Position numbers and translations under genes: made by a program. This document shows positions 16,182-51,562 of a DNA stretch of 64,000 bases, in pieces; position 1 is the first letter of the stretch; the number at the start of each line of letters is the position of its first letter. The notes beneath the pieces were generated by a model. That model saw only the letters and a list, made by a program, of their open reading frames with translations, did not search any database and was not told where the DNA came from. Source of the stretch: Spirochaetales bacterium (GTDB lineage: Bacteria; Spirochaetota; Spirochaetia; Sphaerochaetales; Sphaerochaetaceae); NCBI GenBank assembly GCA_018433865.1, contig JAHDQJ010000003.1:124001-188000 (forward strand). Reading direction: 5' to 3'.

Positions 16182-16530
16182 CGTTCACATGCAGGCTGTC
16201 GATGAGCTCATGCATGGCCTGGGCCTCCTTGATGGAGGTGTCGGCCTTGAAGGTGAGCTTCGGAGTGTTGCGTGTCTTGAGCAGCACCCCTAGCCTCCTC
16301 TGTATGAACCCGGCGGCACTTTGGAGTGCCGCCACCGATTGGCCGAGCTTGTCATCATCGACGAAGGATGAGACCCAGAGCGTGGCATAGGCCTTGTCCT
16401 TGCTCAGGTTCACCTCGCTGACCGAGACGAACTTGCTCAGCAGATGATGTTTGATCTCTCCCGTCACGATCATCGTGCTGACCGCTTCCTGTATCCTGGC
16501 TTCTAGCCGCTGATGAATATACTCACTCAT
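16171..16530 (-). CDS. rbfA: Ribosome-binding factor A
   Basis: A 119-residue KH-fold protein with RbfA features: an N-terminal helix (YIHQRLEARIQEAVSTMIV), then VSEVNLSKDKAYATLWVS and an AAGFIQRRLGVLLKTRNTPKLTF stretch. It assists 30S maturation. It overlaps infB by 8 bp and truB by 11 bp, the classic infB-rbfA-truB order. Confidence 0.95.
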   Translation of the reverse strand: MSEYIHQRLEARIQEAVSTMIVTGEIKHHLLSKFVSVSEVNLSKDKAYATLWVSSFVDDDKLGQSVAALQSAAGFIQRRLGVLLKTRNTPKLTFKADTSIKEAQAMHELIDSLHVNDGE

Positions 16531-19369
16531 TCGTCGTCAACTTCTTTGCAATCTCGATGACATCGATGACCTCTAGGATGTCACCCTGTTGCAGGTTCTG
16601 GAAATTGTCGATGCCGACACCGCACTCGAATCCCGCGGCGACTTCCCTTGCATCATCCTTGAACCGCCTGAGGCTGGAAATCTTGCCGGAGTGGATCTTC
16701 ACGTCGTCACGATAGACATTGACCTGGGCATTGCGCCTGATCTTGCCGTCCGTCACGTAACAACCCGCGATCACGCCGATCTTGGGTACCTTGAATATGT
16801 CCCGGACCTCGACCTGACCGATGACGATCTCCTTCCGTTCCGGGGCAAGCATGCCTTCCATCGCTGCACGGATGTCATCGACCGCATCATAGATGATGTT
16901 GTACTTGCGGATCTCGATCTTCTCCTGTTCGGCGAGAACCTGAGCCCTGGGGGTCGGCCTGACGTTGAATCCCAACACCAGCGCACTGGATGCGATCGCG
17001 AGGTTGATATCGTCCTCGATGATCGCTCCTGCGGAGGCACGGAGCACGTTGAGCCTGATCTCATTGTTCGAGAGCTTCTCCAATGCGTTCTGGACCGCTT
17101 CCACGGAACCTTGCACGTCACCCTTGATGATGACGTTGAACTCCTGCACGGTACCGTCCTGCATCTTGTCGAAGATGTTGTCGAGGGTGACCTTCTTCAC
17201 GTTCTTCGCTTGTCCGAGGCGCTCGAGTTCCTGTCTCTTGGAACCGACCTGCCTGGCTTGCTTCTCGTTCTCGGTAACCTGGAACGGATCTCCCGCACCC
17301 GGTATGTCGCTCAATCCGATGATCTCCACAGGGGTGGCAGGACCCGCTTCGGTAATGCGGTTTCCACGGTCATCCACCATGGCACGCACCTTTCCGGGAT
17401 AGATGCCAGCGACGAAATTGTCGCCCTGGCGCAAGGTTCCCCGTTCGACGATGACCGAAGCGACGATTCCGCGTCCCTGGTCGATCCTCGATTCGATGAC
17501 CTTTCCCTCTGCCCTGACGCTGGGGTTGGCGGTGAGCTCGAGCATCTCAGCTTGCAACAGGATCGTATCGAGCAATTCCTCGATGCCGAGCTTCTTCAAG
17601 GCCGATATCTCACAATAGAGCGTACTTCCGCCCCAATCCTCGGGCATGAGTCCGTGATCGCTGAGCTGTTGCTTGACCCTGTCCACATTCGCCTCGGCAA
17701 GGTCGACCTTGTTGATCGCCACGATGATGGGGACCTTCGCCGCCTTGGCGTGGTCGATTGCCTCGAGTGTCTGCGGCATGACGCCGTCGTTCGCCGCGAC
17801 GACGAGGACGACGATGTCGGTCACCTGGGCTCCGCGGGCACGCATCATCGTGAACGCGGCGTGTCCCGGGGTGTCGAGGAATACGATGTCTCCCTTGCCG
17901 GGAAGCGCAACCTTGTAAGCTCCGATATGCTGCGTGATACCGCCGAACTCACCTGCAACCACATCGGTGGAGCGGATGGCGTCGAGCAGTTTCGTCTTTC
18001 CATGGTCGACGTGCCCCATGATCGTCACGATCGGTGCACGGTTGAGCAGATCGGCCGGCTTGTCCTCATCCGTGGCGATCAATGTCTCGTCATAGAGTGA
18101 GACGAGATTGACCTCACAGTCGTATTCGCCTGCGATCAGCGTGGCCACATCGGAATCGATCTGTTGGTTGATGGTGACCATCATCCCCATCTTCAGAAGC
18201 TTGCCGATCACCTCGGAGGCCTTCAGGTTCATCTTCTTCGCAAGATCGCTTACGGTGATGACCTCCATGATGTCGATTTTCTTCGGCACGGGATTCGCGC
18301 GATGCTGGTCTTTCCGCTTGATCTGGAAATCCCTCTCGGTATCACGATCGGGCCGTACGAAATCTTTCTTCTTTCGGAAGACCTTCTTGCTGGTCTTCTG
18401 TGCCATCGGATCGATTTCAGGTGTGGGCGCATTGCCCGGGGCACCCGGACGTCCTGGGCGTCCACCGTACCCGCCACCGGGCCTGGGACCGCCGAACGGA
18501 GGTCTTCCCGGACCACCTGGCCTGCCAGGTCCATTGTAGGGCGGCCTGCTGCCATACGGCGGCCTGCTGCCCGGAGCCCCGCCGTTATAGGGGGGGCTGC
18601 TGCCCGGAGCACCACCGTTATAGGGGGGTCTGCTGCCCGGAGCACCACCGTTATAGGGGGGTCTGCTGCCCGGAGCACCACCGTTATAGGGAGGTCTGCT
18701 GCCCGGAGCCCCGCCGTTATAGGGGGGCCTGCTTCCGCCAGTACGCTGATACGGTGCATTCGTGCCGTCCGAGGGAGCGCGATTGGCATATCCGCCGACC
18801 TGCCCTACTTGGCGAGGCGTACCGCCTGGAACGGGAGCACCGGCCCTGGCCTGCTGGGGATTGTTCTTTCTCCACTCGGCATGAGCCTGGGCACTCTGAC
18901 CCTGACCCGGTACCGGCGGCAAGTTTTTCGGTGCACGCACCACGGGAGTGGACGGCCCTGCGTTTGGCGTTCTCCTGAAGGGATGGTCGGTGCTTTTCCG
19001 ACCAGCGTGTTCCTCAGGTTGTGCGGGAGCAGGACTTCCGGCGGAAAGCTGCTGAGGCTGGACACGCCCGGACTCTTCGACGGAAACGGTTGCCTGAGTC
19101 GCCGAAGATTCGGTCGCGGCCTGCGTCACCGTGGAAGAAGATGCAGAATCCTCGGCCGGCGGTGCGGTCGGTTTCTCGATGGGCTTGGCCTGAGGTCGCA
19201 CCACGACGACCTTCTTCTTCACCACAACCACTTTCTTCTTCTCAGCAGGACGCGAAGATTCGGCTTCATGTGGTGCTTGACTCGGGTTTGACGGCCCGGC
19301 CGGTCCGCGCGCATGCTTGATCAGGGTTGCCTTTGGCTTCTTATCTTCTTCCGTCATAGGTTCTTTCAA
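16523..19369 (-). CDS. infB: Translation initiation factor IF-2
   Basis: A 948-residue IF2. The N-terminal ~330 residues are low-complexity: basic repeats (KKKVVVV twice), Pro/Ala-rich spacer, then tandem [11 protein letters not shown] units and a Gly/Pro/Arg-rich stretch. The conserved part follows: IF2_N ([25 protein letters not shown]), G1 [20 protein letters not shown], and domains II-IV. It delivers initiator tRNA. TTG at 19369 is taken as start (GAGGAG just upstream, next to the nusA stop); ATG at 19357 is an alternative four codons in. Confidence 0.95.
18564..18728. repeat. Five tandem 33-bp repeats in infB
   Basis: Five head-to-tail units start at 18564, 18597, 18630, 18663 and 18696, with a decayed sixth at 18729. 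Each encodes [11 protein letters not shown] (one copy SSPPY...). Copies differ at only a few bases, suggesting recent slippage or recombination. The length is a multiple of three, so the frame is kept. Confidence 0.95.
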
Positions 19370-20833
19370 TTACTCCTCGTCTACTTCCACTTCTTCGAAA
19401 CTGAGACCGACACCACAACTGGGACAACTTGTCATGTCAGGGGTCAATACATGTCCGCACTCCGGACAGAGGAACTGATGCTCGACCTCACTCTCGTCCT
19501 CTTCCTCCACGATATCGACATACTCGCCCAGCACGCTGTGGATCCTGCGTACCTCGTCCTCGGTGATGTCCTCGAGGCCGGCGATGTCCTCGTCGGCAAG
19601 GTTGACAAATTCCTCGACCGTATAGATGTCGTGGAACTGGAGCTTGTCGACCAGCTCCTTGCCCAGCTCCTCGATGTCGCTGAGCATCATCTCACCCTCT
19701 TCCTCGTAATACTCCGGTTCTTCAACGGGAGAATCGGTGAAGAGCGCGTCGACACGTTCCTTCGTCTCGATATCGAGATCCATCTCACGATACTGGTCGA
19801 GAGTCTTTACGTCAATGATCCAGTCGGCGAGCTTGTTCGCCAACCGGACGTTGATACCCTGCTTTCCGATGGCCAATGAGAGCTGTGAATCGTCGACGAC
19901 GGCTACTGCGGTCCGCTTCGCCTCGTCGAGGATCACCACCCGTTTCACCTCGGCAGGCGAGAGACAGTTCTTGATATACTCGATCGGATTGGGGTCGTAG
20001 CGGAGCACGTCGATGCGCTCACCTTCCATCTCACGCATGATCGTCTGCACCCTGATTCCCTTGAGACCGACACAGGCACCGACCGGATCGAGATCTGCAC
20101 GATGTGAGTAGACCGCCACCTTCGTGCGGTATCCCGGCTCCCGAACGATCTTGTGAATCTCGATGGAGTGGTCATAGATCTCAGGAATCTCAAGTTCGAA
20201 CAGCTTGCGGACGAAATCGGTATGGGTCCGTGAGAGGATCACCCGCAACTGACCGTGCTCAGGCTTCTCGACCTGGTAGACGAAGCACTTGATCTTGTCA
20301 TTCTTGCGGTATATCTCTCGCGGGCTCTGGTATCGCTTCGGGAGGGTTCCCTCGACTTTCCCCAGGTCGATGTACAGATCGCCGTTGGGTTGCTCACGCT
20401 GGTAGTATCCGATGATCATCTCCCCTTCCTTGGTCTTGTACTCGGAATAGAGGGTGTCCTTCTGGATCTCGCGGAGGTCCTGCTTGGCCTTCTGCTTGGC
20501 GCTCTGGACCGATATGCGGTCGAACGTCTTCGGATCTATCGGAATGAGCAATTCGTCACCGATCTCACAATCTTCATGGAGTTCGCGGGCTTCGGAGAGC
20601 GATATCTCGTCGAACTCGCCGCTGTCCTCATCATCCTCTACTATCACTTTCTTGGCAAAGAGCTGTACATTGTCATGCGCCTCGTTGAACTCGACGACGG
20701 CATTGTCGCTCGTACCGAACTTTCTCTTGTATGCGGCAAGCAGCAAACCCCTGATGGTCTCGAGCACCAGGTCTTCGCTGATACCCCTCTCGTTCACCAG
20801 GGTGCGTATTGCATCTCCCAAATCATTGGACAT
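19370..20833 (-). CDS. nusA: NusA with C-terminal zinc ribbon
   Basis: A 487-residue transcription factor: N-terminal RNAP-binding domain, S1 domain, two KH domains (DPVGACVGLKGIRVQTI; LAIGKQGINVRLA) and one helix-hairpin-helix-like acidic module (LADEDIAGLEDITEDEVRRI). After an acidic linker come two CxxC knuckles (CPECGHVLTPDMTSCPSC), a zinc ribbon not found in E. coli NusA. It controls pausing, termination and antitermination. ATG at 20833 is preferred because GGGAGGA precedes it; it overlaps the rimP stop (TAATG). A start 18 bp upstream lacks a ribosome site. Confidence 0.95.
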   Translation of the reverse strand: MSNDLGDAIRTLVNERGISEDLVLETIRGLLLAAYKRKFGTSDNAVVEFNEAHDNVQLFAKKVIVEDDEDSGEFDEISLSEARELHEDCEIGDELLIPIDPKTFDRISVQSAKQKAKQDLREIQKDTLYSEYKTKEGEMIIGYYQREQPNGDLYIDLGKVEGTLPKRYQSPREIYRKNDKIKCFVYQVEKPEHGQLRVILSRTHTDFVRKLFELEIPEIYDHSIEIHKIVREPGYRTKVAVYSHRADLDPVGACVGLKGIRVQTIMREMEGERIDVLRYDPNPIEYIKNCLSPAEVKRVVILDEAKRTAVAVVDDSQLSLAIGKQGINVRLANKLADWIIDVKTLDQYREMDLDIETKERVDALFTDSPVEEPEYYEEEGEMMLSDIEELGKELVDKLQFHDIYTVEEFVNLADEDIAGLEDITEDEVRRIHSVLGEYVDIVEEEDESEVEHQFLCPECGHVLTPDMTSCPSCGVGLSFEEVEVDEE

Positions 20834-21321
20834 TATGACATATCCTCCCATGCATAAGCTAATTTGGCCTTCTGAACCCGGCCGTGCGGAATATGGTACG
20901 TTTCCATGGTTTCCTTGGAATCTTCGATGCTGGCATTGTACAGGATGACCTCACTCTCCGAAAGCGGTCCGATGATTCCTTCAATCCACGCGCCTGGTCC
21001 GCTGTCGTAGACCCTGCAACGTTTCCCCTCGAAGAGCGCGAATTCGTGCAGGTCCCGGAAAATGCGTTGCACGCCCGGCGTGGATACCTCGAGATCGAGG
21101 TTGCGCTCCCCGCCGAGCAAACTCAGGCGTGGGAATATGATCCGGTGTGCCTTGGCACAATCATCGATCCCTGCGGTATGTCCCGTGTTGGTGATCGTCA
21201 CCACCACATGCGTGGCATCACGATGCTCGTCGCTGCGGACATCCACGACCCGCAACCCTATCGGTTGCAGCACCGCCGAGATCTCCTGGAACAATGCATC
21301 TTTCTCAATACTGTTTTGCAC
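20833..21321 (-). CDS. rimP: Ribosome maturation factor RimP
   Basis: A 162-residue RimP, with VVDVRSDEHRDATHVVVTITN, DDCAKAHRIIFPRL and LEVSTPGVQRIFRD marking the conserved N-terminal domain. It acts in 30S assembly. GTG at 21321 is chosen because GGAG lies 5 nt upstream and family similarity begins there. It is the first gene of the nusA-infB-rbfA-truB run. A terminator hairpin ends only 11 nt upstream of the start, so the gene must be reached by read-through. Confidence 0.92.
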   Translation of the reverse strand: MQNSIEKDALFQEISAVLQPIGLRVVDVRSDEHRDATHVVVTITNTGHTAGIDDCAKAHRIIFPRLSLLGGERNLDLEVSTPGVQRIFRDLHEFALFEGKRCRVYDSGPGAWIEGIIGPLSESEVILYNASIEDSKETMETYHIPHGRVQKAKLAYAWEDMS

Positions 21322-21332
21322 GTGAACTCCAT

Positions 21333-21359
21333 AAAAAAGGGATCGGCTTGTGCGATCCC
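21333..21359 (-). terminator. Intrinsic terminator/attenuator in the rimP-nusA-infB leader
   Basis: On the minus strand, GGGATCG pairs with CGATCCC (seven perfect pairs, 7-nt loop) and is directly followed by TTTTTT, then the ribosome site and GTG of rimP. It lies downstream of the predicted promoter at 21385-21414, the arrangement expected for transcription attenuation. It could also end comF transcripts. Confidence 0.8.
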
Positions 21360-21384
21360 CCAAAAATCAACCATTACTGTGCAA

Positions 21385-21414
21385 AGCGTAATCCATTTGC
21401 CTGCCAATGTCAAT
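21385..21414 (-). promoter_or_regulatory. Predicted promoter of the rimP-nusA-infB operon
   Basis: On the minus strand, a perfect TTGACA (21414-21409), about 17-18 nt spacer and TACGCT (21390-21385). The -35 overlaps the end of comF. It predicts a leader of about 55 nt containing the terminator hairpin. The -10 is weak (three of six). Confidence 0.5.
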
Positions 21415-51501: not shown

Positions 51502-51516
51502 CAGCCAGTGCTCATG

Positions 51517-51545
51517 AAAAAAGCGGACCGACCGGTCCGCTTTTT
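51517..51545. terminator. Bidirectional terminator
   Basis: GCGGACC (51523-51529), GACC loop, GGTCCGC (51534-51540), flanked by AAAAAA on the left and TTTTT on the right; serves the lipoprotein gene and the convergent phosphoribosyltransferase gene. Confidence 0.9.
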
Positions 51546-51562
51546 CATGCACATGGCTTGGC

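Follow-up and report, generated by a model that had tools for sequence, protein, structure and literature searches.

The rimP upstream region

Within the window, i.e., the whole 64-kb stretch of DNA that was analysed, the genes rimP, nusA and infB are located on one strand and overlap or abut each other (rimP and nusA overlap), whereby no space is left for a separate nusA unit. Between the end of comF and the rimP start codon the following elements were assigned, listed here together with the genes behind them:

21413-21408, minus strand: -35 element TTGACA, overlapping the comF stop codon TGA (21412-21410)
21390-21385, minus strand: -10 element TACGCT, weak, with a 17-nt spacer to the -35 element
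21378-21360, minus strand: short leader of ~20 nt, from the predicted transcription start (~21378) to the hairpin
21359-21353 and 21345-21339, minus strand: arms GGGATCG and CGATCCC of the terminator hairpin, a perfect 7-bp stem with the loop CACAAGC
21338-21333, minus strand: T6 tract of the intrinsic terminator, directly 3' of the stem
21330-21327, minus strand: Shine-Dalgarno sequence GGAG of rimP
20833-21321, minus strand: rimP, GTG start at 21321-21319, matched by the RimP_N Pfam and NCBIfam RimP models
19370-20851, minus strand: nusA, with NusA_N, KH_5 and a C-terminal zinc ribbon
16523-19369, minus strand: infB (IF-2), directly behind nusA

An earlier note on this DNA had described a perfect 7-bp stem followed by T6 and then, after a gap of 11 nt, by the start codon, and each of these statements was found to be exact on the minus strand, with ATGGAGTTCAC being the letters between T6 and the GTG. 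The stem may be extended by two G.U pairs, formed by G21361 and G21360 with the first two T's. Counted from the predicted start, the leader would measure ~57 nt to the rimP start codon and a terminated RNA ~46 nt, which comes close to the ~50-nt leader RNA that had been proposed. As regards the promoter, the claimed TTGACA is present at -35, but the accompanying -10 element possesses only three of the six consensus letters, T1, A2 and T6 being among those present, and it was missed by a generic promoter scan whose result for the window was not above chance. As generic scanners were uninformative and the -10 element is weak, the promoter assignment rests on the comparison with relatives.

A generic terminator scan of the window likewise returned no excess over chance (10 terminator-like sites, 8.7 expected). 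When the search was confined to mismatch-free stems that span 7 bp or more, include four or more G-C pairs and are followed by T6, two were found in the 64-kb window versus 0.03 per shuffled window, and the fold of the rimP leader is more stable than that of its own shuffles (z -2.36). The second of these two stems (51512-51551, near 51522) is a perfect 9-bp stem with T-runs on both strands and is apparently bidirectional.

Conservation of promoter, spacing and hairpin

To our knowledge, intrinsic termination has been little studied in the spirochaete phylum. For the comparison, rimP was located in 55 of 61 genomes and the upstream DNA was read in all 55 (30 search loci, 20 fetched stretches and five obtained later); eight further genomes of the same class were added, giving 63 rimP regions from 26 families as judged by database labels, with several genomes sharing families. 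The earlier note had proposed to look for the hairpin in relatives, and a T-tailed hairpin was indeed found just 5' of rimP in 61 of these 63 regions, covering the 26 families (50/50 in the first set, 4/5 among the last five, where it is absent from G056, and 7/8 among the added genomes). The leader hairpin is clade-wide across this large class of spirochaetes, as far as sequence comparison can tell. Outside the class the element is patchy: within the same phylum a T-tailed hairpin lies at most 200 nt from rimP in 17 of 29 regions, some of them too distant to count, while 12 of the 29 are without one; about a dozen of the 17 are close to rimP and, as judged by eye, often of the form GAGUCG..CGACUC.

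To evaluate the promoter, the best sigma-70-like site 5' of each hairpin was scored in 50 relatives, with the best site in dinucleotide shuffles serving as control. TTGAC at -35 was present in 47 of the 50 relatives (7% in shuffles), and the distance from the -10 element to the hairpin was 22-33 nt in 46 of the 50 (13% in shuffles). The -10 letters follow TANNNT, with T1 in 49, A2 in 49 and T6 in 48 of the 50 relatives, a conservation which is partly built into the scoring, whereas the spacing result is not. The order of promoter, short leader, terminator and rimP is kept whatever gene lies upstream (mutS, comF or others). As the promoter is retained irrespective of the upstream neighbour, transcription of the rimP operon from a promoter of its own, and not by read-through from mutS or comF alone, is supported.

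This arrangement bears on the idea that the hairpin might be a constitutive partial terminator or insulator, blocking read-through from mutS or comF and passing a fixed, unregulated fraction of polymerases into rimP. Such a role would fit the codirectional gene, mutS or comF, that ends closely upstream in many relatives, and a stem of this strength requires no factor. An insulator would, however, be expected in front of the promoter, while here the promoter precedes the terminator with a spacing conserved in 46 of 50 genomes. In addition, the stem letters that are kept exceed the needs of a plain terminator, as exemplified by the C-G pair at columns 20-33 (retained in 44 of 49 hairpins), and the B. 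subtilis leader located at the same place was reported to be regulated, according to a review (PMC12288461). An unregulated element is consequently considered unlikely.

For a closer look at the stem, which here comprises eight pairs, 49 distinct hairpins were aligned. Paired letters occupy 92.8% of the stem cells and seven of the eight pairs show two-sided changes; the covariation score of 0.565 exceeds that of all 500 shuffles (0.332 +/- 0.019), and versions of the alignment that had been slid reached at most 0.275. Purines predominate in the 5' arm, whose last letters are UCG. Near relatives carry the signature GGGAUCG..CGRUCCC, distant ones GGAGUCG..CGACUCC or AAGAGUCG..CGACUCUU. The T columns 3' of the stem are 90-100% conserved, and this run is best explained by termination. 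Its conservation speaks against a hairpin that would serve as stabiliser of the 5' end or as translational control hiding the start codon instead of terminating transcription. The latter was considered since the minimum-energy fold places TTTGCAC opposite GTGCAAA of the start region, but this pairing is lost in the relatives L003 and L006, and both roles are regarded as very improbable.

Specificity of the hairpin

A covariance model (R1) was built from the hairpin and its flanks. At E<=0.1 it identified a single site in the genome of the window, the rimP leader, which itself belongs to the training set of the model. Most relatives yielded the rimP leader as the best or the sole match of the model. 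R1 also recovers the rimP leaders of three genomes which are absent from the model (G037, G044 and G050), and it scores several rimP hairpins outside the class.

The possibility of a wider regulon was considered and rejected: most of the other matches that were inspected (L066-L072) resemble ordinary 3' terminators belonging to unrelated genes, and the exceptions are not repeated across genomes. One of the matches (L071) precedes an HflK-like gene. Another, at L067:1029-1073 in the relative G028, is a rimP-like hairpin, CAGGGATCGTGATGAACGGTCCCTTTTTTTT, located directly 5' of a carbamoyltransferase-like gene, and it may represent a separate attenuator.

Relation to known leaders

Attenuation in front of this operon has precedents. 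Naville and Gautheret (2010) ranked rimP first among the genes with predicted attenuators and described the rimP-leader as the most widespread one, being a short conserved terminator which in most species lacks an anti-terminator and for which NusA was named the best candidate regulator on the basis of older E. coli work (PMC2965389). Set against this description, the spirochaetal leader precedes the same operon, and its terminator, 11 nt 5' of rimP, lies within the 4-130 nt given there; it likewise consists of a short T-tailed hairpin with a G-rich 5' arm, a C-rich 3' arm and conserved stem letters, and has no larger conserved element, aptamer or anti-terminator (PMC2965389). The motif GGGc..gCCC of that report (PMC2965389) differs from the one found here, where the outer pairs GGG..CCC are followed by A-U as the fourth pair; the consensus of the class reads RGGRRUCG..CG. 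As the exact motif is absent, the spirochaetal leader was assigned to the same kind of attenuator and not regarded as a carrier of the motif itself. Spirochaetes are unmentioned in the main text of that paper (PMC2965389).

The Rfam family RF01770, which represents the rimP leader of Gammaproteobacteria, shares the terminator hairpin directly 5' of rimP but differs in that E. coli possesses two tandem hairpins and the upstream tRNA gene metY. Searches with Rfam at gathering as well as permissive thresholds gave no match at the site, and RF01770 matched nowhere in the window and at none of the spirochaetal leaders. Across 41 genomes RF01770 produced weak, scattered matches, none above the cut-off (gathering threshold of 47 bits; the E. 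coli positive control scored 102 bits), with the best ones lying away from rimP.

A 2025 review states with reference to Mondal et al. (2016) that NusA of B. subtilis is autoregulated by NusA-stimulated termination in the 5' leader (PMC12288461). As proposed here, read-through into the nusA operon is controlled there by a terminator located in the 5' leader, but the dependence on NusA, which was documented for B. subtilis (PMC12288461), is a hypothesis for the spirochaetal leader. As in the B. subtilis type, nusA is located downstream in the same gene cluster. The two leaders differ in length, with ~180 nt being given for B. subtilis (PMC2965389) and ~57 nt being predicted here from start to start codon.

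A literature search returned no paper linking spirochete, nusA and transcription attenuation, and the main text of a Borrelia 3'-end mapping paper mentions neither infB nor the rimP gene. Thus, while the attenuator kind is already known, its spirochaetal form is uncatalogued in Rfam and has a stem signature of its own. Attenuation in front of rimP-nusA-infB would have been retained across a large spirochaete class in a form that the current RNA library misses. With the covariance model and the tight spacing between promoter and hairpin, a minimal test system (~46 nt) is at hand in which termination controlled by a factor can be studied in a phylum other than Firmicutes and Proteobacteria.

Proposed mechanism

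The attenuation of rimP-nusA-infB that the earlier note had put forward is strongly supported by the anatomy of the site and its conservation, that is by promoter, hairpin, T-run and spacing retained over 26 families. Termination with partial read-through would accordingly take place at the site. In our preferred reading, to which a probability of about 0.75 is given, the element in front of rimP-nusA-infB attenuates transcription in the manner of the rimP-leader. RNA polymerase would start at the predicted promoter overlapping the end of comF and synthesise a leader of ~20 nt before meeting the 7-bp hairpin and U6, where a fraction would stop and yield an RNA of ~46 nt, while the remaining polymerases would continue into rimP-nusA-infB and the genes behind. 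The ~20-nt leader is too short to leave room for an aptamer. One anti-terminator, GAUUUUU pairing with GGGGAUC, was evaluated and rejected, since L020 and L025 have GACC in the stem but retain the upstream GATT, so that compensation is lacking. As neither an aptamer nor a competing anti-terminator was found, the fraction reading through would most likely be set by a protein of the transcription machinery acting on the terminating complex. NusA, the product of the second gene of the operon, may, when abundant, stimulate termination and in this way hold its own operon in check. Given attenuation, NusA is probably the regulator, and its feedback is a plausible and good hypothesis, consistent with the published B. 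subtilis case and with older E. coli genetics.

A stem of seven perfect pairs followed by U6 may stop most polymerases unaided, and therefore a factor acting as anti-terminator has to be considered as well. The attenuator could in that case be read by RimP, a ribosomal protein, NusG or an RNA-binding or cold-shock protein. The products of rimP and infB serve ribosome assembly and translation initiation, RimP is also mentioned by Naville and Gautheret (PMC2965389), and many family members carry a TTTTT tract directly 5' of the stem. Conserved extra structure that could serve as a binding element is nevertheless lacking, and the best precedent, the one from B. subtilis, is NusA. A factor other than NusA is accordingly given some weight, albeit a minor one, and regulation by NusA is retained as the preferred reading. 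A distinctly doubtful proposal is that the zinc-ribbon NusA of this lineage directly recognises a spirochaete-specific stem code, in which a purine 5' arm ends in UCG and faces CGA or CGG; if true, NusA autoregulation would here follow a recognition rule of its own that differs from the GGGc..gCCC form found elsewhere.

The C-terminus of NusA was identified as a zinc ribbon (CPECGHVLTPDMTSCPSCGVGLSFEEVEVDEE; PF13248). A CxxC..CxxC ending is present in about 25 of 30 relatives, several of the others being cut off by the end of the locus, and a literature search found no paper describing such an ending of NusA. Further downstream, infB encodes an N-terminal extension that contains a run of near-identical 11-residue repeats (18250-18800, minus strand).
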